A stretch of DNA of 38,962 bases, taken from IMG/VR virus record IMGVR_UViG_3300044816_000100, positions 1 through 38,962 of that record, one strand, 5' to 3'. Every line of letters starts with the position of its first letter. Position 1 is the first letter of the stretch. The stretch comes from a virus. The translations under genes and the position numbers were made by a program. Below are positions 3,462-38,962 of this stretch, one piece after another. The notes below the pieces were generated by a model. That model was not told the DNA's origin. It did no database searches and worked only from the letters and a program-made list of their open reading frames with translations.

Positions 3462-3474
3462 GGCGCTCCTGGCT

Positions 3475-14277: not shown

Positions 14278-14309
14278 GGGTTACTCCTGCGCGCTTGCGC
14301 TGATTCGGG

Positions 14310-14612: not shown

Positions 14613-14622
14613 CGTGTCTCTC

Positions 14623-15057
14623 CTAGGTGCGTTGCTTGCACTGGATCCGGATCGTCAGCACCGCGATCCGGACCGTGTCGCTGTGGAACTCCATGAGGCC
14701 TGTGCCGACCACCAGTGCCTGACGGACGGCGCCGCCGACGCTCGCATCGGCGCGGAGCTGCTGCGCGATCTCGTCGCGCAGCACGTAGGCGCGCTTCGTG
14801 GTCGCCTCCTGGTCGGCGCCGTTCTTCTCGACCTTCACCAACACCTCGAGGGTGTAGGTCTCTTCGCGCCGCTGGTTGCCGAGCGCGCCGGTCGCTTCGC
14901 CGTCGTCGTGGATGTCGCCCATGAGAATGAACTCGTTCGCCGGCGACTTCGGGAACCCCCAGCTGATCTGTACGCCCTCGAGCCCGCTGCGAAGTTTGAG
15001 CAGGTCGCGGAGGTTCGCCTTCAGCGACGGCTGGGTGGTCGAGAGAGCGACTGGCAT
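14623..15057 (-). CDS. Tail terminator-like protein
   Basis: This is a 144-residue protein with L-R-D-L-L-K-L-R-S-G-L near residue 16, E-E-T-Y-T-L-E-V-L-V-K-V, and the closing strand V-R-I-A-V-L-T-I-R-I-Q. This is the layout of lambda gpU-like or gp17-like tail terminators, which cap the tail tube and stop its growth. Its place between the head-tail connector and tail tube genes agrees. The start overlaps the connector stop. The call rests on fold pattern and synteny. Confidence 0.62.
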   Translation of the reverse strand: MPVALSTTQPSLKANLRDLLKLRSGLEGVQISWGFPKSPANEFILMGDIHDDGEATGALGNQRREETYTLEVLVKVEKNGADQEATTKRAYVLRDEIAQQLRADASVGGAVRQALVVGTGLMEFHSDTVRIAVLTIRIQCKQRT

Positions 15058-18183: not shown

Positions 18184-18188
18184 AGCTG

Positions 18189-18926
18189 TCAGCCTCCGTT
18201 CTTCACGAAGTCGATGAACTCGCCCAACGTGGCCTTCATCGAAGTGATGGCCTCGCTGCGCTTTTGCTGTTCGGCGGCTCCGTCGTCCCGAGTGGAGGCT
18301 TCCGGCTCGGTGGAAAGGAGTGCCTTCACGAGCTCGGGATCAACGTCCCGAAGCTCCTGGAGGAGCCCGGCGAGGCGCCGGAGCTCCACACTTTTGACGT
18401 TCCCGACCTGAGCGAGCTGGTTGGCAGGGAACGTGACCGGCGAAAACTCCCAGAGCTTCAGCTCCTTGAGTCGTCGGTCGACGAGGGCGTCGGTCTCGTC
18501 GCCGATCCACTTGATCGTCTGGTAGCCGATCGACAAACCAGTGATCGCCTTGGCCTTCATCAGCGCGCGCGCTTCCGCGCCGCGGCGCACGTCGAGCACT
18601 AGCTGCCCGAGCGCGTGCAGGCCCTTCACGTCTTCCTCGAGCTCCAGCGAGATACCGATCGGCTCGTACGGGTCGTGCTGCCAGAGGATCGGCACCTGAC
18701 CCTTCGACTCGCGGATCGTTTTCTTGAACGCGCCGGGCTCGACGACGTCGCCGTAGCTGTCGACGTTCCCGAAGACAGACGCGTACCCCTCGAACTGGCC
18801 GTCCTCGCTGATGTCGTCGAGCTTGAACTCGAAGTCCTTGTGCTCGATCGGCGAGCCTTCGCCTTTGCCGAGCAGCTCGGCGAGACGCCGAAGCTCCGGC
18901 GTCACGGCCGGCATCGTTGTAGACAT
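18189..18926 (-). CDS. Prohead maturation protease, HK97 type
   Basis: This is a 245-residue serine protease of the U35-type herpesvirus-assemblin fold. The core has F-E-G-Y-A-S-V-F-G-N-V-D-S-Y-G-D near residue 45, G-A-F-K-K-T-I, I-L-W-Q-H-D near residue 80 and G-L-S-I-G-Y near residue 130, the usual His and Ser sites. The C-terminal 70 residues are helical and may act as a scaffold extension. It sits directly upstream of the capsid gene, in the standard order, and removes the capsid delta domain during head maturation. Confidence 0.92.
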   Translation of the reverse strand: MSTTMPAVTPELRRLAELLGKGEGSPIEHKDFEFKLDDISEDGQFEGYASVFGNVDSYGDVVEPGAFKKTIRESKGQVPILWQHDPYEPIGISLELEEDVKGLHALGQLVLDVRRGAEARALMKAKAITGLSIGYQTIKWIGDETDALVDRRLKELKLWEFSPVTFPANQLAQVGNVKSVELRRLAGLLQELRDVDPELVKALLSTEPEASTRDDGAAEQQKRSEAITSMKATLGEFIDFVKNGG

Positions 18927-18942
18927 CTGGGTGGTGTCCTTC

Positions 18943-19542
18943 CTAGACGGGTAAGAGGAACGCGAGCGCGACCGCCGCTTCCTCGTCTTCGATACGTCGG
19001 GTCTGCTCGAGCTCGAGCGCGACAGCGATCACGCCGAGAGCCGCAAGCACCTGCTCCGGATCCGGGTCGAGGTTCGGCGCCACATACACGCTCGGCGCCG
19101 GCATCACGAGGTCGAGCACCGCCGCCGGCACGCGCACGCTGATCGCGTGGATGTCGACCGGCTTGCGCAGCCGCGGCGCGACCAGCCGCTCCCGAGGCTG
19201 CTCCGGAGGCACGATCACGAATCCGCGGCCGCCACCGGCCAGCGGAAGCAGCATGCCGACCTCGAGCCCGGGCGCCGGGGCGACGAGCGTGACGATCGCC
19301 GACGGCGCGAGCACGGCGAGGTCGACCGTCGGGCCGACCGGGGCGAGTGACTCGGCTGATGCCGCCGGAATCGCGACCGCCAGTCCGACCGCCGGCGGCG
19401 CCGCGACGGCCTGCGATGCCGCAGCCGGGACAGCGACGCCGACGTCCACACTCGCCGCTGGGGCGACCGTCGTCAGTGTGGCGGCCGGAACGGTGACCGT
19501 GATCTGGCTGAGCCAGAAGGTATCGAGCGTCAGCGTCTGCAT
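18943..19542 (-). CDS. Val-Pro-Ala repeat protein in the head region
   Basis: This is a 199-residue protein. The ATG at 19542 overlaps the upstream stop (ATGA). Residues about 15-110 are a degenerate repeat of roughly 18 residues with V-P-A-A or A-P-S-A followed by an alternating V-x-V-x-V strand. This suggests stacked beta strands, perhaps a rod or surface layer. The second half is less regular and ends in a helical stretch with Q-T-R-R-I-E-D-E-E-A. It lies between portal and protease with other virion genes. No family recognised. Confidence 0.7.
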   Translation of the reverse strand: MQTLTLDTFWLSQITVTVPAATLTTVAPAASVDVGVAVPAAASQAVAAPPAVGLAVAIPAASAESLAPVGPTVDLAVLAPSAIVTLVAPAPGLEVGMLLPLAGGGRGFVIVPPEQPRERLVAPRLRKPVDIHAISVRVPAAVLDLVMPAPSVYVAPNLDPDPEQVLAALGVIAVALELEQTRRIEDEEAAVALAFLLPV

Positions 19543-20156
19543 CAGAGGAGCGCGATCTCCTCCCAGGTCAGCGAGAAGAACCCGAGCGGCGACGTGCCGG
19601 CTGCCCCGATCTCCTGGAGGCACAGCACGGCACCTGGGAGCACCGCGTGCTCACCGTCGCACTTGTCCTGGAGGATCCCGGTCGGGTTCGCCGCGATCGA
19701 CGCCATCAGGTCGAGCGCGATCGGAATGCCCGAGAGCGTCGAGCCCTGGAAGGCCTGGCCCTTCGGGGTCGCCTGGTTCCCGACCAGAGACGCGATCGCA
19801 GCAAGGGGGGTGCCGGTTGTGGGCTTGGAGGTCTGCTGCTCGACGGCTGCGTAGAAGATCGAGCCGACGCCGAGCGTCCCCGAGAGGATCCCGAACTCGG
19901 CGACGAGCACCGACAGGATTACCCCGGAGTTCGGAGGGTTCCAGAGCGCGATAGGCGGTGTCGTCGAGAGCGCTGTCCCCAGCGCGACGCCGGCGGCCGG
20001 GGTGACCGCGGAGAAGACGTAGCCGCGCGAGACGGCTTCGTGGAAGTGGCCATGTGCGTCACCGACGACCGTCTCTGCGGTCTTGCCGGCACGCAGGCCA
20101 AATCTCGACCCGTCACCGCCCTGCCGCGGGCCGACGAGCTGCTCGAGCAAACCCAT
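19542..20156 (-). CDS. Putative virion structural protein
   Basis: This is a 204-residue protein. It starts M-G-L-L-E-Q-L-V-G and has G-H-F-H-E-A-V-S-R-G-Y-V-F-S-A-V-T near residue 36, then a beta-rich body with Y-A-A-V-E-Q-Q and a C-terminal W-E-E-I-A-L-L. The pattern recalls phage structural proteins seen in metagenomic genomes, but I cannot name the family. The ATGA overlap with 18943-19542 and the place in the head block support a capsid-associated role. Confidence 0.65.
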   Translation of the reverse strand: MGLLEQLVGPRQGGDGSRFGLRAGKTAETVVGDAHGHFHEAVSRGYVFSAVTPAAGVALGTALSTTPPIALWNPPNSGVILSVLVAEFGILSGTLGVGSIFYAAVEQQTSKPTTGTPLAAIASLVGNQATPKGQAFQGSTLSGIPIALDLMASIAANPTGILQDKCDGEHAVLPGAVLCLQEIGAAGTSPLGFFSLTWEEIALL

Positions 20157-20160
20157 GGTG

Positions 20161-20475
20161 TTACTCCTTGTCTCTGAGGGCCGTCACGAGCTCGCCGACC
20201 GTCTCGGTCAGCTCCTCGATCGCCCTACTCGTGATGTGGTCGTGGACGCGGAAGACGTTGGCGCCGTCGATCCGGTCGACGGCGACGATCGATCCGTCAG
20301 CGCCGCCGATGACGAGCGCTTGCATGTAGACGGTGGTCGCCGCGAACGTGCCGTCCGCCTGCTGCACGTATGCGGTAACAGGGAACGCGCGCACGGACTT
20401 GCCGGCACCGTCGACGGGGAGCGTGACAAGACCCTCCTGGCCCGCGGGAGGAGTGGATGCGATCGGCTGCGCCAT
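20161..20475 (-). CDS. Small protein of the head region
   Basis: This is a 104-residue protein. Residues 1-70 look beta-rich (L-V-T-L-P-V-D-G-A-G-K-S-V, Y-M-Q-A-L-V-I-G-G-A-D-G-S). The C-terminal 30 residues are a charged helix (R-A-I-E-E-L-T-E-T-V-G-E-L-V-T-A-L). A small beta head with an oligomerising helix would suit a virion spike or adaptor, but that is inference. It is separated by four bases from each neighbour. Confidence 0.65.
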   Translation of the reverse strand: MAQPIASTPPAGQEGLVTLPVDGAGKSVRAFPVTAYVQQADGTFAATTVYMQALVIGGADGSIVAVDRIDGANVFRVHDHITSRAIEELTETVGELVTALRDKE

Positions 20476-20478
20476 CTG

Positions 20479-20928
20479 TTAGGACGCCACTGCCTTCAGC
20501 ACGCCGGTTGCGTCCCAGTTGAGCGTGAGCGTGTTGACGACGTTCACGTCGACGCCGAGATCGACATAGCCGAGCAGCTCCGACGTTCCAGCGGTGCCGG
20601 TGTCCTTGTAGACGGCGATGTACCTGACGGTCGCGTTGGCCGCGGTGATCGTCGTCGGGTTCGCGGTCAGCCGCGTCTCATTCGAGGCCGCGTCGTAGCT
20701 GACCGCCTTCCCGGCGAGCGCGACGCCGCCGGCGGTGTACCCGCCGCTCGCAGAGATCTCCTGCGCGCTGACGTCCGACCAGAAGACGTGGTTGTCCTGA
20801 TCAGGCGTGTAGGTGTTCTTGAGCGCGGCCGCCTTGATCGTGTCGCTGGCCCAGTCGACCTTCCGCGACGCCGTCGCGCTCAGTAACCCGAGCTCGGCCT
20901 GGCCGTACCATTTCGCGGTGACCGCCAC
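20479..20928 (-). CDS. Phage structural-type protein (A-K-W-Y-G family)
   Basis: This is a 149-residue protein with the pattern A-K-W-Y-G, then W-A-S-D-T-I-K-A-A-A-L, Y-T-P-D-Q-D, G-G-Y-T-A-G-G-V-A-L, V-R-Y-I-A-V-Y-K-D, L-G-Y-V-D-L-G and a closing T-L-T-L-N-W-D-A-T-G. This is a widespread beta-rich phage family I recall, often encoded with head and tail genes and of unproven function. The GTG start overlaps the portal stop (TAGTG). Confidence 0.75.
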   Translation of the reverse strand: MAVTAKWYGQAELGLLSATASRKVDWASDTIKAAALKNTYTPDQDNHVFWSDVSAQEISASGGYTAGGVALAGKAVSYDAASNETRLTANPTTITAANATVRYIAVYKDTGTAGTSELLGYVDLGVDVNVVNTLTLNWDATGVLKAVAS

Positions 20929-22391
20929 TACGAGCTCTCCTCTTCGCTGTAGAGGGTCTCGGTGCCGTCGGCGCGCTTGACGACGACCTGGCGGTTCGGC
21001 ACCTCGAGCACCGCACGCAGCTCGAGCGGCTCACGTTCGGCGATCGCCTTGAGGCCCTCCGCGATCGCGGCGGCGATCGCGTCGTCGCCGTCCTGGCTCT
21101 TGTAGCCGCCGGCCGGGATCACGATCACCTCGCGGCTCTTGCCGCCGCCGCCGCCGGAATCGTTCGGTGCGCCTCCGACCGGCGTCGCCTGGAGCTCGTC
21201 GCCACGCGGGTCGGGTTTGTAGCCCTCGAGGCGGCGGATCTCGTTCGCGGTCAGCCAGCCGGCCTGTCGCGCATTCTTGTAAGCCTCGTACCGGGCCTGG
21301 GTGTCGGGACGAAGGAGCGCGTCGGAGAGGTGCTCGACGTAGAGGTGCTCGCCGGGCGGGCAAAGGTCCGGGTCGGCGGAGAAGCCCTCATCCATGATCG
21401 TCAGGTACGGGCCGAGGGCGAACGTCACGAGCCGATTGCGCGCGACGTCGGGGGACGATGCGGGCCTCGCGCCGGTGTCGGCGTCGAGGAACTCCTTCGG
21501 GATCCGGTAGATGCCGGCCATCTGGCTCATCGTCAGACGGTTGGCCTCGACGAACTGGGCGTCGTGGAGGTTGATCGGGATCTGCGTGACCGTCGCGCCG
21601 CCACCGACCGCTGCGGTCGAGTGTGCGCGGTCGACGCCGGCGTGCTCGGCGTCCCAGAGGTCGATGAATGCACGCGCCTGCTCCTCGTCGACGTTCTGCG
21701 GGAACGTCAGGACGACGCCGGGCTTGGCGTCGCGGTCGTAGTAGCCGGCCTCGAACCGCTGCCGCTTCAACCCGGTCGCGATCGCGACGCGGGCGGCGCT
21801 GACCGGCGAGATGCCCTCGGGGCTGTAGACGAGGTTGGAGCTCGCGTTCAGTCGGCCGAGCCGGAGGTGGATGATGTCGGTCGCGTCGCGCGTCGTGGCG
21901 TCGCCCGGCTTGCCGGTGTAGGTGTAGTCGTCGAAGACGACGCGGCCGCCGCTCCGGCGTGCCCGCACGAAGCGGCGGTCGAGCACCTCGAGCTGCCGGA
22001 CGCGGCCGCCTGACTTCCACTTCCGGATGAACGCGTTGCCGCCGGCGGCGAGGCTGAGCACGATGTCAGCGCGGAACGCGCCGGGCGTCGTCTCGGCGTT
22101 CGGGCGGCGGTGGAAGAGATCCCACTGCCAGGTGTCCGGCGCACGGTCGCGCTCGTCGCTGCCGGCGCCGCGGTAGACGATCGTTGGGAGCATCGAGATC
22201 GAGTCGGCGAGCATCAGCAGCGCCGCGAGCAGCGCCGGCAAACCGACCGCCTGGTCGGCGCTGATCAGGTTGCCGGCCATCAGCCAGTCGCTCGACGGTG
22301 CGGAGCCCGACCACGGCCAATCCTCGAGGAGCCCCTTCTTGCTGATCGACGTGACGCGGAGCTCGCCCTTGTCGGCGGTTGCGAGGATCAC
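20928..22391 (-). CDS. Portal protein
   Basis: This 487-residue protein forms the dodecameric DNA channel of the head. It starts at GTG 22391 with GGAGGTG upstream and overlaps the previous stop (GTGA). Typical HK97 portal features are seen: L-P-T-I-V-Y-R near residue 67, W-D-L-F-H-R-R-P-N, a helical stem region with Y-Y-D-R-D-A-K-P-G-V-V-L and Q-M-A-G-I-Y-R-I-P, and the C-terminal Y-E-A-Y-K-N-A-R-Q-A-G-W-L-T-A-N-E-I-R. The longer frame upstream of 22391 is a shadow. Confidence 0.92.
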   Translation of the reverse strand: MILATADKGELRVTSISKKGLLEDWPWSGSAPSSDWLMAGNLISADQAVGLPALLAALLMLADSISMLPTIVYRGAGSDERDRAPDTWQWDLFHRRPNAETTPGAFRADIVLSLAAGGNAFIRKWKSGGRVRQLEVLDRRFVRARRSGGRVVFDDYTYTGKPGDATTRDATDIIHLRLGRLNASSNLVYSPEGISPVSAARVAIATGLKRQRFEAGYYDRDAKPGVVLTFPQNVDEEQARAFIDLWDAEHAGVDRAHSTAAVGGGATVTQIPINLHDAQFVEANRLTMSQMAGIYRIPKEFLDADTGARPASSPDVARNRLVTFALGPYLTIMDEGFSADPDLCPPGEHLYVEHLSDALLRPDTQARYEAYKNARQAGWLTANEIRRLEGYKPDPRGDELQATPVGGAPNDSGGGGGKSREVIVIPAGGYKSQDGDDAIAAAIAEGLKAIAEREPLELRAVLEVPNRQVVVKRADGTETLYSEEESS

Positions 22392-22630
22392 GAGAACACC
22401 TCCGGCAGCGCCTGGATGAAATCCACGCGCGCGATCGGGACGGCCACAAAGCCAGCGAGCTCGGTGCTCTGGTCCGGGCCGGTCAGGATGCGAGGAACGT
22501 CGAGCGTGTGGAGCCCGTACCGGCACCCCTTGTAGATGCCCTGCAGGCTCGGTGCGCTGTCGCGCAAGTGGATTCGGACCATGCGGCCGCGCATCCGCCG
22601 GCGACGGAAGAACGTGAGGAGGTTGGGCAT
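22388..22630 (-). CDS. Small conserved protein between terminase and portal
   Basis: This is an 80-residue protein. It starts with a basic run (F-F-R-R-R-R-M-R-G-R-M) followed by V-R-I-H-L-R-D-S-A-P-S-L-Q-G-I-Y, L-D-V-P-R-I-L, S-T-E-L-A-G-F-V-A-V-P and V-D-F-I-Q-A-L-P. This is a small beta-barrel-like pattern I recall from short genes at this place in actinophage-like genomes. Its role in packaging or head assembly is unknown. It overlaps the portal start by four bases. Confidence 0.72.
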   Translation of the reverse strand: MPNLLTFFRRRRMRGRMVRIHLRDSAPSLQGIYKGCRYGLHTLDVPRILTGPDQSTELAGFVAVPIARVDFIQALPEVFS

Positions 22631-22634
22631 CAGG

Positions 22635-24437
22635 TCAGCTGCGCCAGGGGAGCGCGCCGGCGGACGTCGCGGCGGCCTTCTTCTTGGGCCTTGAGACGAG
22701 CACGAACGGCTTCGCCGGCGTCGCGCTGAGCGCGCGCCAGTGAGCGAGCACGGCGGCGGTCGCGCCGTCGATGCGATGCGACCGGCTCTCCTTGTCGATC
22801 GCGTCGTACTCCTTGGTGCCGCGGTAGACCTTCTTGCCGACCGCGTTGCCGAAGTGGCGCGAGAGAACCGGGTCGCCGTCGTGGCCGACCTTGCCCTGAT
22901 CGACGGCCTTCTTCATCGCGCGGACGGCGTCGGACATGTCCTTGCTCTGCGGGTAGACCGGAGCGATCGTGAACCCGGCGCGCGCGAGGTGCTTCGCCTC
23001 GTTCGTGAAGTACTCGGGATCGAAGACGATCTCCCGGATCTTGTACGTCTTCGCGAGCTCGTGGATGTACGGCTCGACGAGCTGCTCGTTGTCGAGTGAG
23101 TCGCCTGGCGGGAAGACGTGCGCGGGGTTGCCGGCGATCGCCGACCACACGCGTGCGCGGACGTGGATCCGTCCGTCAGGTGCCTTCCACGCGAACACGA
23201 CGGCGGTGGTGTCGCCGGAGTAGGCCGCGTCGATCCCGACGTAGATGTCCGCGCCTGCCGGGACCTGGACACCGTCTGCGTGCAAGCGGTTCCAGGCCCC
23301 GGGAGGCAGCCATGAGAATTTGCCCTTCGTCGGCTGGTTCAGGTGCAGCCGACGCCAGTCGTACTCGTCGGCGCCGGGGCGGATCAGCGCTGCGCGGAGA
23401 TCGCCGACCGACACCGTCGAGAGTGGGTTGCAGAGCTTGATGATCCGGTCGTCCTCGATGTCGGCGTCGTCGGGCGCGCCGTACCAGTGCATGAGGAAGC
23501 CGGAGGCCTCGTCGCGCAGGATCATCAGGCAGCCGTCGTTGTAGACCTCGAGCTTCGGGTGCTTCAGCGCGGCGAGGTGGATCTCGCCGAGCAGGCTCGA
23601 CTCGTCGCTATAGGCCTGGGAGATCGCCATCAGCCAAGACTCCCCGGGCCGCTTGTGGAGAGCCTCAGCGATCGCGTTCCAGGTCTCTTTCTGCTGGCGA
23701 TGGACGAACTGCCAGATCTCGTCGCCGATCGCAGCTGACGGGTTCGTGCCGTGCGCGAGATCTCCGATCGAGGAGAGCAGCGTGTAGGCGCCGCCGCGCT
23801 CAGGGACGGCGATCGACGAGCCGTGAACCTTGAGGAAGCGGCCGAGCTCTCCGTCGGTGTTGCGCTTGAGGAATGTCTGAGCGTGGCCGGCCTGCGCTCG
23901 AGCTCCAGCGAAGCCGTACACATCCGGGATCTGGCCGGCCGGAGGATCCAGGACAGCAAGCGAGCCGAACCCAGCGGCGAGCGGCGTCTTCCCGTTGCCC
24001 TTCGGGATCCCGAGCAGGCCGACGTTGAACACGCGCCGGCCGTGGCGGTCGCGGCGGTACCAGTCCTGCACCCACAGCTTCTGGAAGAGCTCGAGGTGGA
24101 AGCGCTTGCCGGCTCGCGGACCGGCGAAGTGGCGGAACGCCCACGGGAAGTAGTTGACGACACGCTCGATGCTGCGGGGTGGGCCGAGCTTCGCGAGCGT
24201 CTCGTCAAGAGACTTCTGTGTGCGCTCCTGCCGAGCGTGCAGCTGCGGGATCGCGTTCGCGAACTGGACCGCGATCCGCCGACGCTCGAGCTCGTGGTCG
24301 GCGACCCGATATTGCTCCTGGAAGCGAGCGAGCGACTTCCAGCGGAGGTCGAGGCCGGCGAGCAGCTCGTGATGGCGTCCAGGACGGAACGAGCCGTCAC
24401 GGACGAGCTCCTCGAGGCTCTTCGTTGGGCGAGCCAC
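22635..24437 (-). CDS. terL: Terminase large subunit (possible small-subunit-like N-terminus)
   Basis: This 600-residue packaging motor has an ATPase Walker A at residues 143-151 (G-I-P-K-G-N-G-K-T) and acidic D239-E240 (I-G-D-E-I-W) as the Walker B site. The nuclease domain begins near residue 399 (V-G-I-D403-A-A-Y-S-G-D), with V-F-D473-P-E-Y and a late H-R-I-D-G-A. The first 60 residues (L-E-E-L-V-R-D-G-S-F-R-P-G-R-H-H-E-L-L) resemble small terminase proteins often encoded separately. No separate small subunit is recognised nearby. Confidence 0.93.
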   Translation of the reverse strand: MARPTKSLEELVRDGSFRPGRHHELLAGLDLRWKSLARFQEQYRVADHELERRRIAVQFANAIPQLHARQERTQKSLDETLAKLGPPRSIERVVNYFPWAFRHFAGPRAGKRFHLELFQKLWVQDWYRRDRHGRRVFNVGLLGIPKGNGKTPLAAGFGSLAVLDPPAGQIPDVYGFAGARAQAGHAQTFLKRNTDGELGRFLKVHGSSIAVPERGGAYTLLSSIGDLAHGTNPSAAIGDEIWQFVHRQQKETWNAIAEALHKRPGESWLMAISQAYSDESSLLGEIHLAALKHPKLEVYNDGCLMILRDEASGFLMHWYGAPDDADIEDDRIIKLCNPLSTVSVGDLRAALIRPGADEYDWRRLHLNQPTKGKFSWLPPGAWNRLHADGVQVPAGADIYVGIDAAYSGDTTAVVFAWKAPDGRIHVRARVWSAIAGNPAHVFPPGDSLDNEQLVEPYIHELAKTYKIREIVFDPEYFTNEAKHLARAGFTIAPVYPQSKDMSDAVRAMKKAVDQGKVGHDGDPVLSRHFGNAVGKKVYRGTKEYDAIDKESRSHRIDGATAAVLAHWRALSATPAKPFVLVSRPKKKAAATSAGALPWRS

Positions 24438-26268: not shown

Positions 26269-26450
26269 TGGAACCCGAGCCCTCCGCCCCGGCGAGAGTC
26301 GCGGATCAAGTGGCGGCGCACGGACTCGGCGAGCTCGGTGCCGTCGAGCTCGACGCGGACGGTCACCTCGACGTAGCGAGGCCGCGCGTACTCGCGCACC
26401 GCGGCGAACCCGACCGCGACGCCCGCGAGGAACGTCAACAGGCGCCTCAC
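26265..26450 (-). CDS. Small signal-anchored protein
   Basis: This is a 61-residue protein. Residues 3-18 (R-L-L-T-F-L-A-G-V-A-V-G-F-A-A-V) form one membrane or signal segment. A short beta stretch (Y-V-E-V-T-V-R-V-E-L-D) and a basic tail (R-R-H-L-I-R-D-S-R-R) follow. The GTG start overlaps the HNH stop (GTGA) and its stop overlaps the next GTG. A minor membrane role is likely. No family recognised. Confidence 0.62.
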   Translation of the reverse strand: MRRLLTFLAGVAVGFAAVREYARPRYVEVTVRVELDGTELAESVRRHLIRDSRRGGGLGFQ

Positions 26451-26893
26451 CTGGCCGCCTTGTTGCCTGGGCTGGTTATGGCCACGCTGGCCATAACGCG
26501 CGCGGATCCAGGCACGGGGCGGGCGCGTTCGCCTGGAGCCTCGCGCGACCCCCCCTTAGCGTTCGGCGCGTCAACGACGCCATGACAGTGCGCGCACGCT
26601 GCGTCGACGTCGTCGATCGTCGCGAGCTCATGCCGACCTTCGAGCTCGCGATGCAGGTGACCTGTCGTCGCGAACGTCGTGCAGCCGGGCAGCTTCAGCT
26701 CGCACAGTCCGCCGGCGAGCTCGCGCCGCTCGACGCTGAGCCTTCGCCAGCCGCGAGTGTCGCGACCGTGCTCGCGCTGCTTGCTGTGACGGCGCGCGTT
26801 GTCAGCAGCGGTCGCTGCCTCGAGCTCCGGGCACGAGTGCGATTCCGCCGGCATCACGATCCGCTTGCAGCGGCAGATCTTGCCGACGCTCAT
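26447..26893 (-). CDS. HNH endonuclease
   Basis: This 148-residue protein is counted from ATG 26893, which has GAGGA at good spacing; a GTG at 26938 is possible. An N-terminal C-R-C-K-R and C-P-E-L may bind zinc. The core has G-L-C-E-L-K-L-P-G-C, T-G-H-L-H-R-E, D-A-A-C-A-H-C-H-G-V-V-D, the order of HNH nucleases with structural Cys pairs and a catalytic His. HNH proteins next to terminases nick or cut DNA during packaging in HK97-like phages; here five genes separate it from terL. The C-terminal 40 residues are low-complexity. Confidence 0.78.
   Translation of the reverse strand: MSVGKICRCKRIVMPAESHSCPELEAATAADNARRHSKQREHGRDTRGWRRLSVERRELAGGLCELKLPGCTTFATTGHLHRELEGRHELATIDDVDAACAHCHGVVDAPNAKGGSREAPGERARPVPGSARVMASVAITSPGNKAAR
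26476..26498. repeat. Perfect 10-bp-arm inverted repeat inside the HNH gene
   Basis: The arms GTTATGGCCA and TGGCCATAAC are exact complements around CGC. The repeat lies within the 3' coding part of the HNH gene. Its 23-bp overall size equals that of the lysogeny operator at 33636-33658, though the sequence differs. It could be an operator, an RNA hairpin or chance. Confidence 0.5.
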
Positions 26894-26940
26894 CGTGTCC
26901 TCGTCGCGGTGGACATCGATGAGGTCGAGGCGACCCACAT

Positions 26941-30082: not shown

Positions 30083-30844
30083 CTAGGTGCAGGTGATCTT
30101 CACAAGGTCGACGTGCGAGCCTGGATGTCCATAGACGATGCTCTGCATTTTCACGGTCTGGCCGGCTTTGACTGAGGGCTGTAGAGCGTTCGTGTAGCCG
30201 ACGGTCACGCCCGAAGGATCGACGACGTTGGCCATCACGTAGAGGTCGTAGGAGCAGTCGTTTTGGGTGACCACTAGGTACGAGAAACAGATCGCGCCGT
30301 GCGAGTCTGATTGGCCGTTTTGGAGATCGACGCCGAAGATAGTGCGGCAGGTGGATGGCTGGTACGCGACGTTGCCGCTGCCTGTGCCATCACCGGTCCA
30401 GACAATGAAGCCGGCGGGCGGCGTGTAGGGCGCCGGCTTCGTGAGCGTCAGACTTCCTCCCGTCCATGACGTACCCCAGTTGGTGACGCTGGTGATGTCG
30501 ATCGCGTAGCGCGCCCCATCGCTCGCGCCCACGTCGCAGGAGAAACGCTGGAAGTACCTTGGCGAGCGAGCGTAGGAGTAGCCGCGTGATAGGCCGCGCC
30601 CGGTACAGCTGGCGTTGACGACCTGGACGGTCTTCGCCGCGGCGTTGCTGCCGCCGGGGTGCGAGACGATTCCTCGTGCGACCAGAGTCGCGTTGATCGC
30701 TTCCGTGGTTGCCCACGTGCTCGTCGGCTCGGGCAGCTTCGACCGCGCCGACGCCAACGGCGAGCAGCACGCGAAGACGATGGCGACGGCTGCCGAAGCC
30801 CAGCGTTTCGGGATTATCCCCTTGACACAGGGTAGATAGTCCAT
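30083..30844 (-). CDS. Secreted protein with IS-derived N-terminus
   Basis: This is a 253-residue protein. Residues 1-12 (M-D-Y-L-P-C-V-K-G-I-I-P) are encoded by the left end of the IS element. The original signal peptide follows (K-R-W-A-S-A-A-V-A-I-V-F-A-C-C-S-P-L-A-S-A). The mature part has paired Cys residues (A-S-C-T-G-R-G, F-S-C-D-V-G-A) and looks like an extracytoplasmic beta protein common in actinobacteria. The new ATG overlaps the IS small gene stop (TAATG) with AAAGGA upstream. Placed beside the repressor, it is probably lysogenic-conversion cargo. Confidence 0.7.
   Translation of the reverse strand: MDYLPCVKGIIPKRWASAAVAIVFACCSPLASARSKLPEPTSTWATTEAINATLVARGIVSHPGGSNAAAKTVQVVNASCTGRGLSRGYSYARSPRYFQRFSCDVGASDGARYAIDITSVTNWGTSWTGGSLTLTKPAPYTPPAGFIVWTGDGTGSGNVAYQPSTCRTIFGVDLQNGQSDSHGAICFSYLVVTQNDCSYDLYVMANVVDPSGVTVGYTNALQPSVKAGQTVKMQSIVYGHPGSHVDLVKITCT
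30801..30808. repeat. Left copy of 8-bp target duplication
   Basis: CAGCGTTT directly abuts the left end of the element and recurs at 32854-32861 after the right end. Eight bases is the duplication size known for IS1595-family elements. Confidence 0.9.
30809..30832 (+). repeat. Left terminal inverted repeat of IS1595-type element
   Basis: 24 bases, matching the right end with one mismatch (GATTAT here against GAATAT there). The rest, including the block CCCCTTGACACAGGG, is identical. Confidence 0.92.
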
Positions 30845-30981
30845 TATCCTTTGCCCTGTGAGGGTTTGCGACGATTCTTTTCTGCCTCTTCCTTTGCCCG
30901 GTCGGCAACCTTCTTGGGGAAGAGCTTCCGCAGAGCCTCTTCGGTCGTCAGGTCTTGCGCCTTCTTGCGCGGTCTAGCCAC
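30844..30981 (-). CDS. Small basic IS accessory protein
   Basis: This 45-residue protein is counted from GTG 30981, which has GGAGG seven bases upstream. It reads A-R-P-R-K-K-A-Q-D-L-T-T-E-E-A-L-R-K-L-F-P then a Lys/Glu helix. I recall short proteins of this type beside IS1595-family transposases; their role is unknown. Its start lies ten bases from the transposase start on the other strand, and the same AGGAGCCTCC block holds both ribosome sites. Confidence 0.68.
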   Translation of the reverse strand: MARPRKKAQDLTTEEALRKLFPKKVADRAKEEAEKNRRKPSQGKG

Positions 30982-30991
30982 AGGAGCCTCC

Positions 30992-31900
30992 GTGAACGCT
31001 GAGATGAATCTGCCCAAGCTGATCGAGCGGTTCGGCTCCGAGGACAAGTGCCGCGCCTACCTGGAAGAGCTTCGGTGGCCGGACGGCGTCGTGTGCCCGC
31101 GCTGCGAGTCCAAGAAGATTTCGCGCCTGGCCGAGCGCAAGCAGTACGAATGCTCGGATTGCCGCTACCAATTCTCCGTGACGGCCGGGACGATCATGCA
31201 CGACTCCCACCTGGACCTCTGGAAGTGGTTCCTTGCGATCTACCTGATGGTCGAGTCCAAGAAGGGGATCAGCGCCAAGCAGCTCCAGAGGATGCTCGGC
31301 GGCTCCTACAAGACCGCCTGGTATCTCTGCCACCGCATCCGAGACGCGATGGGCGACGACGAAGAGCGCCCACTGCTCGGGATCATCGAGGCTGACGAGA
31401 CGTGGCACGGCGGCAAGAAGGTCGGGCGCGGCCTCGGCCCGTACAACAGCGGCAAGACGCTCATCATCGGTGCGGTTGAGCGCAACGGAGAAGTCCGGTT
31501 GCGCGTGAGCCGTGGACGGGATCGCGGGACGCTCCACCGCTTCCTCAACGAGGTTGTAGACGACAAGGCCACCGCGATCTACACCGACGACTGGGTTGGC
31601 TACGTCGGCATTGCGGACGAGGACACCTTCCACGAGGTCGTAAACCACGCGAGCAAGGAATGGGTACGCGGAGACGTTCACAGCAACACCATCGAGAACG
31701 TCTGGAGCCTGTTCAAGCGCAGCGTCATCGGCTCCTACCATCAGGTCAGCGTCAAGCACCTGCCCGCCTACCTTGACGAACTGGAATGGCGGTACAACAA
31801 CCGAGACAACCCCTGGCTCTTCCGGGACACCGTGCGGGCGCTGACGGCTGCGGACGCGCTCACGTACAAGACTCTGACGACCCAGCCGCGTCACCCTTGA
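30992..31900 (+). CDS. IS1595-family transposase
   Basis: This is a 302-residue protein from GTG 30992 (AGGAG upstream; ATG 31004 is an alternative). Residues about 34-58 are a zinc ribbon (C-P-R-C, C-S-D-C-R-Y-Q-F), then the helical M-H-D-S-H-L-D-L-W-K-W-F. The DDE domain begins G-I-I-E-A-D-E-T-W-H-G-G-K-K, has I-Y-T-D-D-W-V-G-Y near residue 195 and S-N-T-I-E-N-V-W-S-L-F-K-R-S-V near residue 230, ending with Y-L-D-E-L-E-W-R-Y-N-N-R. It catalyses cut-and-paste or copy-type movement of the element and is apparently intact. Confidence 0.95.
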   Translation: MNAEMNLPKLIERFGSEDKCRAYLEELRWPDGVVCPRCESKKISRLAERKQYECSDCRYQFSVTAGTIMHDSHLDLWKWFLAIYLMVESKKGISAKQLQRMLGGSYKTAWYLCHRIRDAMGDDEERPLLGIIEADETWHGGKKVGRGLGPYNSGKTLIIGAVERNGEVRLRVSRGRDRGTLHRFLNEVVDDKATAIYTDDWVGYVGIADEDTFHEVVNHASKEWVRGDVHSNTIENVWSLFKRSVIGSYHQVSVKHLPAYLDELEWRYNNRDNPWLFRDTVRALTAADALTYKTLTTQPRHP

Positions 31901-31901
31901 G

Positions 31902-32804
31902 CTAGTCCCCTTCGCCTAGAGCAAGTTGGTCGTCGCTTGCGCGGTGATGCTCCCTGACGCGGACGATTCTGCGCTCAATCGACAGCTTCCCGTCGACTCG
32001 TGACTGAATTACACGAACGTCGCAATGAAGCAAGTCTCCCTTGGCGAAAGCCTCGCCGGCGTTGACGCGGGCGATGAACTCCTCGTCGTCGATCGCTGCC
32101 GAGAACTTCCGCTCCCCATCATTGAACCGCCATTTGTTGCCCTCCTCGAACACAGGAGAGACGACCTCCAAAACCATCGGCTGAACGACATCGACAATTA
32201 CGTCCTCACTACCCGGCGCAACTTCGTAGGCGGGCAGGTCGTCTTTCGTCACCTCGGCTTCTGTGGAGGAGTCGACCTTGAACCGAATCACGTCTACGCC
32301 TTCCCGATATAGCGGCGTGACGACCTGCCGGGCTTGCCGACGGATGGGGAGGCTTTTGTAGAGGGTGACCACGTCCGTTGGGATCCCCTCAAGCTTTGTG
32401 CCGTCCTCTAGCGTCAGCGTGACGTGGCCCGGCTCCGTCGTCGCGGATTCCTCTTGAACCACCTTCTGACTACCGATCGACTTGATGAGCCAGAAGAGGC
32501 TCTTCTGAGCACCGACGATCGTGAAAACGAGCCCCTCTAGGGCCTGGATGGGATTCGAGCCGAAGATGTCGACGGCGTCGTCAAACAGCTTGACCGTGTG
32601 AGCGATCAGTTCGACCTCGAACGAGCCTTCCGCCGTCGCCTTGATTTCCAGCGACACAGGCTCACGCGTCGGAAAAACGACCAGACTTGCCGTGGTGAAA
32701 ATCTCCGCGAGCGACAGCAGCGAAGGCGCTAGGTCGCGGACAGGCATCGTCCCGGACGCCAGCGCGGGACCGTCGTACGTGATGTCAAATGTCTTGTCGG
32801 CCAT
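31902..32804 (-). CDS. IS passenger protein, unknown function
   Basis: This is a 300-residue protein from ATG 32804 (an in-frame ATG two codons earlier is possible). It starts M-A-D-K-T-F-D-I-T-Y-D-G-P-A-L. A helical membrane-like part at about residues 85-112 (A-L-E-G-L-V-F-T-I-V-G-A-Q-K-S-L-F-W-L-I-K) is followed by beta-rich domains (T-L-T-L-E-D-G-T-K-L, E-G-N-K-W-R-F-N-D-G-E-R-K-F). I recall similar proteins near IS1595 transposases and elsewhere in bacteria, uncharacterised. It points against the transposase and ends two bases from its stop. Confidence 0.7.
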   Translation of the reverse strand: MADKTFDITYDGPALASGTMPVRDLAPSLLSLAEIFTTASLVVFPTREPVSLEIKATAEGSFEVELIAHTVKLFDDAVDIFGSNPIQALEGLVFTIVGAQKSLFWLIKSIGSQKVVQEESATTEPGHVTLTLEDGTKLEGIPTDVVTLYKSLPIRRQARQVVTPLYREGVDVIRFKVDSSTEAEVTKDDLPAYEVAPGSEDVIVDVVQPMVLEVVSPVFEEGNKWRFNDGERKFSAAIDDEEFIARVNAGEAFAKGDLLHCDVRVIQSRVDGKLSIERRIVRVREHHRASDDQLALGEGD

Positions 32805-32829
32805 GCGCATAGCTTCGGCCTATTCTCGT

Positions 32830-32853
32830 CCCTGTGTCAAGGGGATATTCCCG
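32830..32853 (-). repeat. Right terminal inverted repeat of IS1595-type element
   Basis: The reverse complement matches 30809-30832 in 23 of 24 positions. Confidence 0.92.
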
Positions 32854-32861
32854 CAGCGTTT
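32854..32861. repeat. Right copy of 8-bp target duplication
   Basis: CAGCGTTT, identical to 30801-30808. Confidence 0.9.
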
Positions 32862-33015: not shown

Positions 33016-33210
33016 ATGGACGAGCGTGAGCGAGCGTCCTTTATCGAGGAGATCGTCGCCGCCCTAGAAGAAGCCGGCGCACCCGAAGGAGCCGAGCTCC
33101 TTGACCTGATGCGGGCCGAGCAGGAGCTCGTCGACGTGCTCGCGGTCTTGCGCCGTCAGATCGCGGCGATCGTCAGGCGTTCGACACGACAGCGGCCACT
33201 AGACGACTGA
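33016..33210 (+). CDS. Small helical acidic protein
   Basis: This is a 64-residue protein with an ATG start and AGGGAA upstream. It is strongly helical (F-I-E-E-I-V-A-A-L-E-E-A-G, E-L-L-D-L-M-R-A-E-Q-E-L-V-D-V-L-A-V-L-R-R-Q-I). The 3' end overlaps the convergent repressor gene by 38 bases. It lies in the space between IS and repressor. No family recognised. The 154-bp gap upstream (32862-33015) may hold its promoter and that of the secreted gene, but no convincing boxes are seen. Confidence 0.5.
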   Translation: MDERERASFIEEIVAALEEAGAPEGAELLDLMRAEQELVDVLAVLRRQIAAIVRRSTRQRPLDD

Positions 33211-33610
33211 CCTCACGCTCGATCGCGAGCATCCGCTGGTCAAGGTTCGCGACGTCAAGTTTGCGATCTAGCGCTGCGAAGTCTGTGCGGACCTCGGCCA
33301 GGCCCTCGACGAGGGCGTGGAGTTGGGCTTTCACATCGCCTTCCTCTTCGCGGTCGCCGTGGAGGAACCACTCGATCGGCTTGTCGAGGACGCGGGCGAT
33401 CTTGGTCAGTTCCGGCCAGTCAGGTACACGCACGTTCTCGTAGTTCTCGACCGTCCGCTTGTGGCGCTCGATCAGCTCGGCGAGCTCTTGCTGCGTTAGG
33501 CCCTTCTCGCGTCGGGCCTGCTTGATGCGGGCCTGAATCGCGGCCGGGTCGATCTGCGACACGAGCAGGAACGTACGGAAGTTGTGGCTGGTTGTCGTCC
33601 AATTATCCAT
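33173..33610 (-). CDS. XRE-family repressor, CI-like
   Basis: This is a 145-residue protein. Residues about 26-86 are an XRE/Cro-CI HTH (I-K-Q-A-R-R-E-K-G-L-T-Q-Q-E-L-A-E-L-I-E-R-H-K-R-T-V-E-N-Y-E-N). Residues about 90-140 are a coiled coil (L-H-A-L-V-E-G-L-A-E-V-R, L-D-R-K-L-D-V-A-N-L-D-Q-R-M-L-A-I-E-R-E) that may give dimers; there is no peptidase domain. AAGGTG precedes ATG. It faces the early genes across a perfect operator and probably maintains lysogeny. Confidence 0.82.
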   Translation of the reverse strand: MDNWTTTSHNFRTFLLVSQIDPAAIQARIKQARREKGLTQQELAELIERHKRTVENYENVRVPDWPELTKIARVLDKPIEWFLHGDREEEGDVKAQLHALVEGLAEVRTDFAALDRKLDVANLDQRMLAIEREVSRLVAAVVSNA

Positions 33611-34054: not shown

Positions 34055-34492
34055 GTGGCGAGGAAGCCGTCGCATTGGGAGCGCGTGCTCGAGCTGCTGC
34101 AAGACGGGGAGGCGCACAGCCACCACGAGATTTACGCGTTGAACGTGATCGGTCATTCCCGGATCGCGGATCTGCGTGCGCGCCACTACGTGATCGAGCA
34201 GTGGCGCGAGGACGACCCGCGCACGGAAGAGACGACCTACTGGTATCGGCTGCTCGGCCGCGAGGTTCCGGCGCCGGCGGCTGTTGAGGCTTCGCCCGGT
34301 GAGGGCGAGGCGGCCGGGCTTGCGTCGGAGTTCGCCCGGTCGCTTGATGCGGGGGAGGAGGGGCTGCAGTCGGCCGTGCTCCCGGCTGCAGCCTCCCCCG
34401 CTTCAGAAGTGACACCCCAGAAGGGGTCGGCTGGTTCCGCGGGGCCGGCCGACCCCGTGCCTTTGCAGCTGAGCCTGGGCGAGGCGGCCTGA
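34055..34492 (+). CDS. Early HTH protein
   Basis: This is a 145-residue protein. Residues 1-65 (W-E-R-V-L-E-L-L-Q-D-G-E-A-H-S-H-H-E-I-Y, I-G-H-S-R-I-A-D-L-R-A-R-H-Y-V-I-E-Q-W) are a winged helix of a type common in actinophage early regions. The rest is Ala/Pro/Ser-rich linker. The GTG start follows a G-run that may serve as ribosome site. It may act in early regulation or replication. No function is established. Positions 34493-34612 after it hold no gene I can support. Confidence 0.65.
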   Translation: MARKPSHWERVLELLQDGEAHSHHEIYALNVIGHSRIADLRARHYVIEQWREDDPRTEETTYWYRLLGREVPAPAAVEASPGEGEAAGLASEFARSLDAGEEGLQSAVLPAAASPASEVTPQKGSAGSAGPADPVPLQLSLGEAA

Positions 34493-34612: not shown

Positions 34613-35443
34613 TTAGCGCGCTACCGCGGGCCGGCGCCGGCGCGGCGCCTTGCGGATGCTGGTGCGGAGCGCGCCGGCGAGGTCGACGGTGACGGGGCCT
34701 GGCTCGGGTGGATCGCCCGGCGTGTCGGGACGGACGAGCGGCTGGCCGGCGAGCTTCGCCTCGAGGAGCGTCCTGATCAGCGGCCGCTGACGGCTCTCGA
34801 GGTCGTCCGGGGCGAACGTCCCGTGCTTGCGCGTCATCCGCTCGACGAGGTCGAGCGCGAGCTCGAGCTCCTCGTCGGCTACCTCTACGCCCGCGAGTTC
34901 GTCGCGCAGCTCTTCCTCGAGGGGAACGATGTCCTCGCGGAACGCGAGCGTGCGCAGCGTCAACGCACCGTCGGTGGTCGCGCCGATCGCGCAGACGCGT
35001 TCGCTGCCCCAGCCGACGAAGCGGGCGACCGCCGCGGCGTCGCGCTCGACGAGCGCCCCAGCGATCAGCGCGTAGGGGCGAAGCGCGATCCTGCTCTTCG
35101 ACGGGACGAGCCAGTACGAGCGCTCGACGAGGACAGGGTCGACCGCGGCCTCGTCGACGAATCCGGTCACGAGCAGCGTCCGGGATTCGGGCGGCTCGAG
35201 CAGGGCGAGCTCTTCCTTGCTCAGGACGACGTACTCGCCCGGCGCGACCTCCCAGGCGGAGACGAGGTCGGCGGGCTCGAGCAGCTGCTCCTCGACGTTG
35301 CAGTAGGGCTTGAGGGTGATCGGGCTGCTGCACGCGAGGTGGAGCTTCCGGAAGTCCTCATCGCCCTTGCGACGAGCCGACGCGAGCCCGACCGGGACGA
35401 CGACGTCACCGATCTGGAGCGTCAAGTTCAGCAGCGTCTTCAC
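34613..35443 (-). CDS. ku: Ku-type DNA end-binding protein
   Basis: This 276-residue protein is counted from GTG 35443; no clear ribosome site. It follows the order of bacterial Ku: V-V-V-P-V-G-L near the start, F-R-K-L-H-L, G-E-Y-V-V-L-S-K-E-E-L-A-L-L near residue 74, V-T-G-F-V-D-E-A-A-V-D-P, S-Y-W-L-V-P, R-P-Y-A-L-I-A-G-A-L, A-R-F-V-G-W-G and L-R-T-L-A-F-R-E-D-I. The C-terminus ends R-R-R-R-P-A. Ku encircles DNA ends and recruits LigD. No ligase is in the window, so host LigD is likely used, as proposed for mycobacteriophages Omega and Corndog. It runs against its early neighbours. Confidence 0.85.
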   Translation of the reverse strand: MKTLLNLTLQIGDVVVPVGLASARRKGDEDFRKLHLACSSPITLKPYCNVEEQLLEPADLVSAWEVAPGEYVVLSKEELALLEPPESRTLLVTGFVDEAAVDPVLVERSYWLVPSKSRIALRPYALIAGALVERDAAAVARFVGWGSERVCAIGATTDGALTLRTLAFREDIVPLEEELRDELAGVEVADEELELALDLVERMTRKHGTFAPDDLESRQRPLIRTLLEAKLAGQPLVRPDTPGDPPEPGPVTVDLAGALRTSIRKAPRRRRPAVAR

Positions 35444-35472
35444 AAGACCACGGTACCGGGCGTTTCGGTCGG

Positions 35473-35667
35473 ATGAACGCCGCGGCCGCACCGATGCACA
35501 CGCTCGACTGGCTGGTCGTGCTCGCGATCGTCACGGCGCCGTTCCTCTACGCGCTCGCGCTGATTCACACGGCGCAGTGGCGGGCCGCTCGCCGCGATCG
35601 CATAGACGACAGGACGCGCCGGCCGATCGGTGGCGCCTATGACGTCAGGACGCGGCGGCCGTGGTAG
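35473..35667 (+). CDS. Small membrane protein, divergent from Ku
   Basis: This is a 64-residue protein. Residues about 12-33 (L-D-W-L-V-V-L-A-I-V-T-A-P-F-L-Y-A-L-A-L) are one membrane span, then R-R-D-R-I-D-D-R-T-R-R. ATG 35473 lies 29 bases from the Ku start on the other strand, so they may share a control region. The stop overlaps the next start. No family recognised. Confidence 0.55.
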   Translation: MNAAAAPMHTLDWLVVLAIVTAPFLYALALIHTAQWRAARRDRIDDRTRRPIGGAYDVRTRRPW

Positions 35668-35873
35668 TCGAGCTCGGGGTGTTGAAGCAGGCGATCGACG
35701 CCGCGGTCGCGTACGCGTCGCTCTCGACGGTCCCTGTCGAGGAGGCCGTGGAGCTCGCCGTCGACTACTTCCGGATCGACGACCCCGGTGACCGGAAGGT
35801 CGTCGCCCATCTAGTCGATCGGCAACTGCGGATCGACGCGGCCCATGGTCTGAAGGAGGCGATGCGTTCGTGA
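35661..35873 (+). CDS. Small helical protein
   Basis: This is a 70-residue protein with a GTG start overlapping the previous gene. It is helical, with V-L-K-Q-A-I-D-A-A-V-A-Y-A, E-E-A-V-E-L-A-V-D-Y-F and K-V-V-A-H-L-V-D-R-Q-L-R. There is no membrane segment. It directly precedes the replication-initiator-like gene and may be a helper, but there is no homology. Confidence 0.6.
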   Translation: MVVELGVLKQAIDAAVAYASLSTVPVEEAVELAVDYFRIDDPGDRKVVAHLVDRQLRIDAAHGLKEAMRS

Positions 35874-37165
35874 AGCGCCAGGAGGGGTTGAAGCCGCTGT
35901 ACACGTGGCGCTCGGCGATCTCGTCGCCGGAGTCCGGTCTGACCCCGACGGAGCATCACATCGGGCTGACGCTCTCGATCCACATGAACGAGCTCGGCTC
36001 GTCCTGCTACCCCGGGATTGAGCTGCTCGTGCTCGAGACGTGCGGCCGGTCGGCTTCGACCGTGCGCGACGCGCTGCGGCAGATGGACGCGCTCGGCTGG
36101 ATCAGTCGGAGCCTCCGCGTCGGGCGCGGCAACTCGAACGAGTACGAGGCGCTGATCCCGCCCTGGTACGAAACCCACCGGAGCGCGGCGGATTTGAAGC
36201 TTGGCGTCGAGGCGCGGCGACTGCTAGCTCTCGAAGCCGCGAGAGCGTGGCAGGCGAGCTCGCAGGCCCCGCTCAGCGCACCCGTCGTCCCGAGAAAAAC
36301 CCGCCGGAGCGCGGCGGGTTCCGCCGCCGAGCCCGCCGAAAGGGAAACCGCCGGGGCGGCTCGCGAAACCCGCCGGAGCGCGGCAAGAAACCCGCCGGAC
36401 ACCGGCCCCGAGGTCCTCAAGAGGACATCACTGAGTGCTCCAGCAGCAGATCCCTCTCCAAGAACGGAAGCTCTAGACAACGCGAACGGCGAAGATCGGG
36501 CAGCACCTGCTGCTGCTTTCGAGGGGCCACCGTCGGAGGCTTCGATCAAGGCTGCAGGTGCGCGACTGCGCGGCTGGGACAAGGACAGCCTCGGCATCGT
36601 CGAGCCGATCGCTCGGTCGATCACCGCGTCGGAGTTCGAGCGCGTGGTCGCGCATCTCGACGAGCGGTGCGCGAGCGGACGCGTGCGTAACCCCGTCGGC
36701 TTGTTCGTCCGGCTGCTGACGATCGCCCGCGAAGAAGCGCGCGTCGCCGCCCAGGCTGCGTTCCTCGCGAGCCTCGGCCCCTCGCCCTACGTGGGACGCA
36801 GCCCGATCGAGGAGATGAAACGGCACGACCGGGCCGGCTACGTCGACATGCTCGCCACGAAGTTCACGGATGCCGAGCTCCGCGACGCGCTCAACGGCTA
36901 CGTCACCGACGAGGACGAGTTCCGTGTGCTCCTCGCGCGCGCCGCCGACGTCCGCGCCGGCCGGATCGCGATTCGGGAGACACCCGAACAGGCTCGCGTC
37001 CGCGCCATCCGCGAGCTCGTCGACGCAGGCAGCGACGAAGCGACCCTCGCCGAGGCGATCAACGCCATGGCCGACGACGTCGACGAGCTCGAGCTCGCAG
37101 GCCTCCACGACTACGCGACCCGGCTCCAACGCCACAACGCCGCAGACGAAAGCGCGGCCGCCTGA
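35870..37165 (+). CDS. Replication initiator-like HTH protein
   Basis: This is a 431-residue protein with a GTG start overlapping the previous stop. Residues about 25-85 (T-E-H-H-I-G-L-T-L-S-I-H-M, S-S-C-Y-P-G-I-E-L-L, R-S-A-S-T-V-R-D-A-L-R-Q-M-D-A-L-G-W-I) are a HTH_36-type winged helix found in phage replisome organisers. Residues about 120-220 are a low-complexity Ala/Arg/Pro linker. The C-terminal 200 residues are helical, with G-L-F-V-R-L-L-T-I-A-R-E-E. It probably opens the phage origin and loads host helicase, by analogy. Confidence 0.68.
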   Translation: MKRQEGLKPLYTWRSAISSPESGLTPTEHHIGLTLSIHMNELGSSCYPGIELLVLETCGRSASTVRDALRQMDALGWISRSLRVGRGNSNEYEALIPPWYETHRSAADLKLGVEARRLLALEAARAWQASSQAPLSAPVVPRKTRRSAAGSAAEPAERETAGAARETRRSAARNPPDTGPEVLKRTSLSAPAADPSPRTEALDNANGEDRAAPAAAFEGPPSEASIKAAGARLRGWDKDSLGIVEPIARSITASEFERVVAHLDERCASGRVRNPVGLFVRLLTIAREEARVAAQAAFLASLGPSPYVGRSPIEEMKRHDRAGYVDMLATKFTDAELRDALNGYVTDEDEFRVLLARAADVRAGRIAIRETPEQARVRAIRELVDAGSDEATLAEAINAMADDVDELELAGLHDYATRLQRHNAADESAAA

Positions 37166-38584: not shown

Positions 38585-38962
38585 TGGCGGGCGTCCCGAT
38601 CGAAGCCGAGCGCATTCTCGAGCGGCTGCTGTCGATCGACGACGCCCATCCGCTGATCGATCGCGCACGGGCCGAGGCCGCGTTCCAGCAGCATCTCGCT
38701 GTCCTGGACCTCAAGCCTCGGCCCGTGCGCTGGATCGACGTCGACGAGATGATGCGGGCGGCGCGGGCGGCGTGGGCGGCGTGGGAGGCGTGGGCGGCGC
38801 GGGCGGCGTGGGCGGCGCGGGCGGCGTGGGAGGCGCGGGCGGCGTGGGAGGCGCGGGCGGCGTGGGAGGCGCGGGAGGCGTGGGCGGCGCGGGCGGCGTG
38901 GGAGGCGCGGGAGGCGTGGGCGGCGCGGGAGGCGTGGGCGGCGCGGGAGGCGTGGGCGGCGC
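38584..38962 (+). CDS. Ala-Arg/Trp triplet-repeat protein, partial
   Basis: ATG 38584 opens a frame that runs off the right edge. The first 56 residues (A-E-R-I-L-E-R-L-L-S-I-D-D-A-H-P-L-I-D-R-A-R-A) are a normal helical domain with V-R-W-I-D-V-D-E-M-M. From about residue 58 it consists only of the three-residue unit [R/W]-[A/E]-A, repeated at least 23 times. I recall DUF6745-type proteins with such stretches beside homologues of 38270-38584. The function is unknown and the C-terminus is not seen. Confidence 0.6.
   Translation, partial: MAGVPIEAERILERLLSIDDAHPLIDRARAEAAFQQHLAVLDLKPRPVRWIDVDEMMRAARAAWAAWEAWAARAAWAARAAWEARAAWEARAAWEAREAWAARAAWEAREAWAAREAWAAREAWAA
38755..38962 (+). repeat. 9-bp tandem coding repeat
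   Basis: At least 23 copies of a 9-base unit of the form (C/T)GG-G(C/A)G-GCG continue to the window edge. Variation is limited to two sites, Arg or Trp at codon 1 and Ala or Glu at codon 2, always in frame. Such an array is prone to slippage. Confidence 0.9.

Follow-up and report, generated by a model that had tools for sequence, protein, structure and literature searches.

What does a small temperate phage do with a Ku of its own? Phage Ku has so far been linked to circularisation of the genome only where overhangs are very short, in mycobacteriophages, and it is a long-open question whether the protein is there to protect ends, to bring a ligase, or to hold ends together. The gene described here makes that question testable in a single protein, because its product has kept the ligase-recruiting end while the contact that aligns breaks has changed. 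It lies in an incomplete contig, the 38,962-base virus record IMGVR_UViG_3300044816_000100, which is the window analysed throughout, and it points to a separate acquisition of Ku, apparently out of the lineage of its own host, by a small temperate phage of another class within the Actinomycetota.

The precedent comes from cluster J (Omega) and cluster O (Corndog) phages, which combine Ku with 4-nt 3' overhangs and for which LigD-dependent circularisation has been proposed (PMC3706429, PMC4351075; Pitcher et al. 2006, as cited there). An earlier, sequence-only reading of the window took Omega and Corndog to be the known cases of phage Ku, which is too narrow, as Ku is a general feature of clusters J and O, the Streptomyces phage BillNye has one, and 11 phages with Ku have been counted (PMC8136500); a 2025 survey likewise lists 11 viral Kus, that of BillNye among them (PMC11936186). 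Searching with a cluster J query, we recovered 83 phage records with Ku, nearly all of them mycobacteriophages, and two alignment-based scans of IMG/VR yielded 20 distinct contigs with Ku, of which about half resemble mycobacteriophages. One Ku match labelled as a fecal phage, MT838252, was set aside, as it looks like a fragment of a bacterial chromosome, with the ku gene beside an ORF resembling formamidopyrimidine-DNA glycosylase.

The minus-strand ORF at 34613-35443, which opens with GTG and runs for 276 codons and a stop, encodes a genuine bacterial-type Ku. A longer mechanical ORF of the same frame begins at 35491, but homology to other Kus starts only at the GTG at 35443. The 276-residue protein scores 161.5 bits against the NCBIfam equivalog TIGR02772 (Ku_bact; curated cut-off 150) and 91.9 bits against PF02735 of Pfam (cut-off 25; E 6.3e-26), matches the PHROGs family phrog_4873, 'Ku-like DNA end binding', over residues 1-266 (E 1.5e-32), and finds bacterial Ku among solved structures by phmmer (E 4e-20, residues 9-265). 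It consists of a core of about residues 1-230, a minimal C-terminal region with a helix at 255-265, and a very short basic tail (APRRRRPAVAR). A first AlphaFold2 model built from 9 sequences was poor (pLDDT 67) and was superseded by a monomer model built from 35 window and locus sequences, with a mean pLDDT of 83, falling to 60-70 in the arm (residues 31-70). This model contains the predicted core fold with its ring-forming arm, as well as the C-terminal helix, and over residues 1-233 it resembles the DNA-bound Kus of Bacillus subtilis (Z 18.5) and Mycobacterium tuberculosis (Z 18.4) with an rmsd of 3.3-3.4. Thus the original call of Ku is borne out, including by the structural comparison with mycobacterial Ku. 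The parallel comparison with phage Gam gave nothing: scans of the protein against Pfam, PHROGs and NCBIfam returned Ku alone and no Gam profile, Ku families and Ku structures stand at the top of the lists, and no Gam structure appears among the fold matches of the model, although this last result by itself excludes nothing.

The contig is that of an HK97-type siphophage. On the minus strand it carries the terminase large subunit (22635-24437), nearest to the phiBT1/phiPsal1-type enzymes, and a capsid module (17017-22526) of portal (20928-22526), protease (18189-18926) and major head protein (17017-18183), with tail proteins and an endolysin (2376-3566) encoded elsewhere in the window. Upstream of the terminase, the minus-strand ORF at 26447-26938 is a possible HNH-type protein (E 0.004 to Firecracker gp28, no Pfam match); this assignment and that of a small terminase subunit are both weak. 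The assembled part of the contig holds neither a PF01068 ligase, in agreement with the observation that Ku has no ligase in view, nor an integrase (PF00589, PF00239), and the integrase gene probably lies in the missing segment of the genome. End repeats are absent from the record; its left edge is an att-like tRNA fragment and its right edge an 18-bp tandem repeat (38756-38962, 11.5 copies, encoding an AAWEAREAWAA-like repeat) at which the assembly probably stopped. Megablast of the first 25 kb against phages recovered no relatives, and neither did a terminase scan for close ones. The interval 30804-32858 is apparently a transposon carrying a phage gene inside a phage, as an IS1595-type transposase and a putative phage structural gene of the LAPAL family are enclosed there by 29-nt inverted repeats that are 90% complementary.

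The tRNA fragment identifies the host group. Bases 5-47 of the plus strand are the 3' half of a tRNA-Lys(TTT), identical to the sequence in Thermoleophilia genomes: an exact match was found in 24 genomes, nearly all labelled Thermoleophilia or Actinomycetota and one Acidobacteriota, and ARAGORN, run on eight loci, found a complete tRNA-Lys in the host at each. Immediately before the core the contig reads ACGA where the host copies read GGGG, so its edge represents the phage side of the att site. This match is direct evidence that the phage is temperate and belongs with the class Thermoleophilia. It is a phage of soil bacteria, its candidate hosts being the 24 genomes that share the att sequence. 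Ku is present in 22 of these, in one to three copies per candidate host, and the LigD ligase domain is found over the cut-off in 20 and at E<0.001 in all 24; in a wider draw of Thermoleophilia, 271 of 399 genomes match the phage Ku at E<=1e-10. One Thermoleophilia contig (L014) has a second tRNA-Lys 3' half (753-795) lying 5.4 kb from the intact tRNA (6202-6275), a possible footprint of another element at the same att site.

Within the phage genome, ku adjoins the lysogeny region, as the earlier reading had it, with a gene for a cI-like HTH repressor (33173-33610, minus strand) about 1 kb away. The same reading placed ku against all nearby early genes, which holds for its flanks but not more widely. 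Its immediate neighbours all lie on the plus strand: an early ORF of unassigned function that faces it from downstream (34055-34492), a small membrane-like ORF (35473-35667) that diverges from it about 30 bp from its start, a further ORF (35661-35873), and a gene for a replication initiation protein that weakly resembles O (35870-37165; E 3e-5). The cI-like gene, which with the O-like gene brackets ku, and the structural operon share its minus strand. A TANNNT -10-like element (TACCGT, 35450-35455, minus strand) spans -12 to -7 relative to the GTG, the position expected of leaderless actinobacterial promoters, and is a candidate for such a promoter of ku. It is a consensus match only, to a motif with a background frequency of about 0.0004 per position per strand; several host ku homologues likewise have TANNNT elements near their starts, and a stricter sigma-70 promoter scan for the ku gene found none.

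Where the gene came from is indicated by two maximum-likelihood trees, in which the phage Ku groups with a clade of chromosomal Kus from Thermoleophilia (100/100), away from those of mycobacteriophages, so that capture from the host's own lineage is probable. Placement with the Corndog type is rejected (p-AU 0.003); a position inside the host clade as sister of L119 (98/96) and one beside that clade are not told apart by the test (p-AU 0.256). Identity to the clade reaches at most 42%, and the phage branch, known from one sequence only, measures 2.6 against about 0.1-0.3 in host homologues, or about ten times as long. In the four host contexts inspected, the clade's ku occupies a conserved chromosomal locus, not a prophage, beside an AMP-binding acyl-CoA ligase-like gene, with an NlpC/P60 protein also in view at three of them, and no prophages like this phage were found around host Ku loci. 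Single-sequence scans of viral and genome contigs for close relatives of the phage Ku returned none. Furthermore, none of 38 contigs sharing the capsid module carries Ku, although many of these are short fragments; the capsid module therefore does not need it, which argues for an accessory capture. The clade itself, the second Ku clade of Thermoleophilia (e.g. L080:7607-8470), conserves H35, C38, C48 and H51, which together resemble a metal site, and at the loci inspected its genes lie apart from that of LigD.

Comparison of the phage protein with its relatives shows changes at its N-terminal end: W5, G7 and F11 are invariant in 47 host homologues, and all three are altered. The change covers the N-terminal strand and loop (codons 5-13, 35405-35431, minus strand), in which W5, G7, F11 and L13 of other Kus are replaced by L, L, I and D. 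Through residue 110 the numbering is the same as in M. tuberculosis Ku according to the phmmer alignment, and landmark residues agree with PMC12658125. Asp at residue 13 is unique to the phage protein: of 88 other Kus, 84 have Leu there and three Met or Phe, the last being truncated at its N-terminus. In M. tuberculosis Ku, Leu13 and Val14 form a hydrophobic Ku-Ku contact; the L13A/V14A double mutant retains DNA binding but no longer forms filaments, and its counterpart is non-functional in vivo (PMC12658125). A hydrophobic residue at this contact is a functional rather than a family-defining feature, and its replacement by Asp in the phage protein probably weakens the Ku-Ku filament through which breaks are aligned. 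L13D thus argues against plain reuse of the host's Ku-Ku synapsis mechanism. D13 may be an assembly or sequencing error, but the whole N-terminal strand is also altered. Of the bridging site H35/C48/C51, the phage Ku keeps H35 and C48, and Glu replaces C51; V14 is retained, and D26/H27 of M. tuberculosis Ku are replaced by K/G. Readings taken over from the M. tuberculosis structures (PDB 9i91, 9ig8) rest on 24-28% identity.

At the other end of the protein, the helix that recruits LigD retains D254, L255 and S262, the equivalents of M. tuberculosis D250, L251 and S258, whose mutation prevents the stimulation of ligation by LigD in a study that tested five C-terminal residues (PMC9638933). The equivalents of D247 and R262 within the minimal C-terminal region are V and A, at positions that are also non-D and non-R in the host clade. 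With these residues kept, and with Ku and the LigD ligase domain common among the candidate hosts, the suggestion that the phage depends on host LigD is plausible.

The reading we put forward, possible and held tentatively, is that an end-binding Ku protects the phage ends and recruits host LigD for circularisation, with cohesive ends supplying synapsis. In this scheme, a temperate Thermoleophilia siphophage would have taken up a chromosomal, host-type ku as a single cargo gene beside its lysogeny region, possibly driven by its own short promoter. After injection, the Ku dimer ring would thread onto the linear double-stranded ends and shield them from host nucleases; the conserved C-terminal helix, as its kept residues support, would bring host LigD, or a smaller host ATP-dependent ligase; and with the cohesive ends rather than Ku-Ku filaments doing the aligning, the host ligase would seal the genome into a circle. 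Phages of the phiC31 type have cohesive ends, and the affinity of the terminase to phiBT1/phiPsal1 types hints at such ends here. The equivalog match, the fold, the kept C-terminal residues, Ku and LigD in the candidate hosts, the grouping with chromosomal Thermoleophilia Ku, the terminase type, the constraint described below and the cluster J/O precedent all support this proposal. Against it stand L13D at the filament contact and the changes at W5, G7 and F11, the substitutions at two of the five C-terminal positions examined in PMC9638933 (both of them also substituted in the host clade), the lack of Ku in all 38 capsid-module contigs, and the length of a branch that represents one sequence. 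A narrower version, in which the captured protein is a synapsis-deficient end binder (D13) that still recruits host LigD and would seal only phage ends aligned by their overhangs, sparing unrelated ends, appears distinctly unlikely.

Other uses of the gene have to be weighed against the same residues. The protein might only cap injected or replicating phage ends against RecBCD/AdnAB-type nucleases, with synapsis and ligation given up, much as Mu Gam protects ends (PMC1378119). L13D predicts loss of the filament, and DNA binding could persist, as it does in L13A/V14A (PMC12658125); but pure end protection would not require D254, L255 and S262, and both sequence and fold are those of Ku, with no match to the Gam family, which makes this explanation rather unlikely. 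Charged D13 at the synapsis contact would also suit interference, whereby a divergent Ku pairs with host Ku, or holds ends without synapsis, and blocks host NHEJ, thereby keeping phage DNA from being mis-joined or allowing lysis to proceed. Because the gene comes from the host's own clade, mixed dimers are conceivable, but they are conceivable only, and the LigD-recruiting residues are kept; we regard interference as quite improbable.

The remaining explanations turn on the gene's setting and history. Lysogenic conversion, in which a prophage Ku expressed from its own promoter adds to host NHEJ and helps the lysogen withstand desiccation or DNA damage in soil, would account for a gene that runs opposite to the early genes, near the repressor and behind a candidate leaderless promoter, in a phage whose tRNA att site indicates lysogeny and whose capsid relatives lack Ku; in mycobacteria, moreover, Ku matters for desiccation survival (PMC12658125). 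The candidate hosts, however, already have their own ku genes, and the phage protein is altered at a residue on which this role in survival depends in mycobacteria, so we consider such conversion unlikely. Lastly, ku could be a decaying passenger, taken from the host, functionless and still open by chance, as the long branch and the loss of 28 of 83 clade-invariant residues would suggest. The frame is nonetheless full-length, with strongly biased codon usage (GC3 0.91), and the score lies above the Ku equivalog cut-off. Furthermore, the phage protein keeps 55 of the 83 sites that do not vary in the host clade (66%), twice the rate at which variable sites match the sister sequence (57 of 178, 32%; p 2.5e-7). 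Given this constraint and the codon bias, the gene is not simply decaying, and the passenger explanation is improbable.

Set beside known systems, the phage Ku may work like those of Omega and Corndog though it is of another lineage. As in clusters J and O, it comes without a LigD-type ligase, at least in the assembled contig, and the host would supply LigD. In contrast, cluster J and O phages have genomes of about 70-115 kb with Ku among many co-directional genes, and their Kus keep Leu or Met at residue 13. What is new here is the independent origin, the small temperate phage of another class, the single counter-oriented cargo gene and the altered synapsis residue. With the chromosomal Kus of its own clade (e.g. 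L119/G197) the phage protein shares C38, C48, C151 and the C-terminal helix, but those proteins have a longer basic tail and keep the N-terminal residues that the much diverged phage gene has lost. Mu Gam, which also works on DNA ends, is a possible functional analogue, but the phage protein differs from it in being a full bacterial Ku with a LigD-recruiting helix at the C-terminus. The cluster J Ku has an Lsr2-like tail that is absent here; in Optimus (L004:2977-3828) the protein ends in this DNA-binding tail, as noted already in PMC3706429. A different arrangement is seen in the 95-kb contig IMGVR_UViG_3300047160_009070 (L061), in which Ku and an ATP-dependent DNA ligase (phrog_114, E 2e-44) are encoded on the same strand about 3 kb apart (9719-10843 and 13757-14905), possibly a complete phage end-joining pair.
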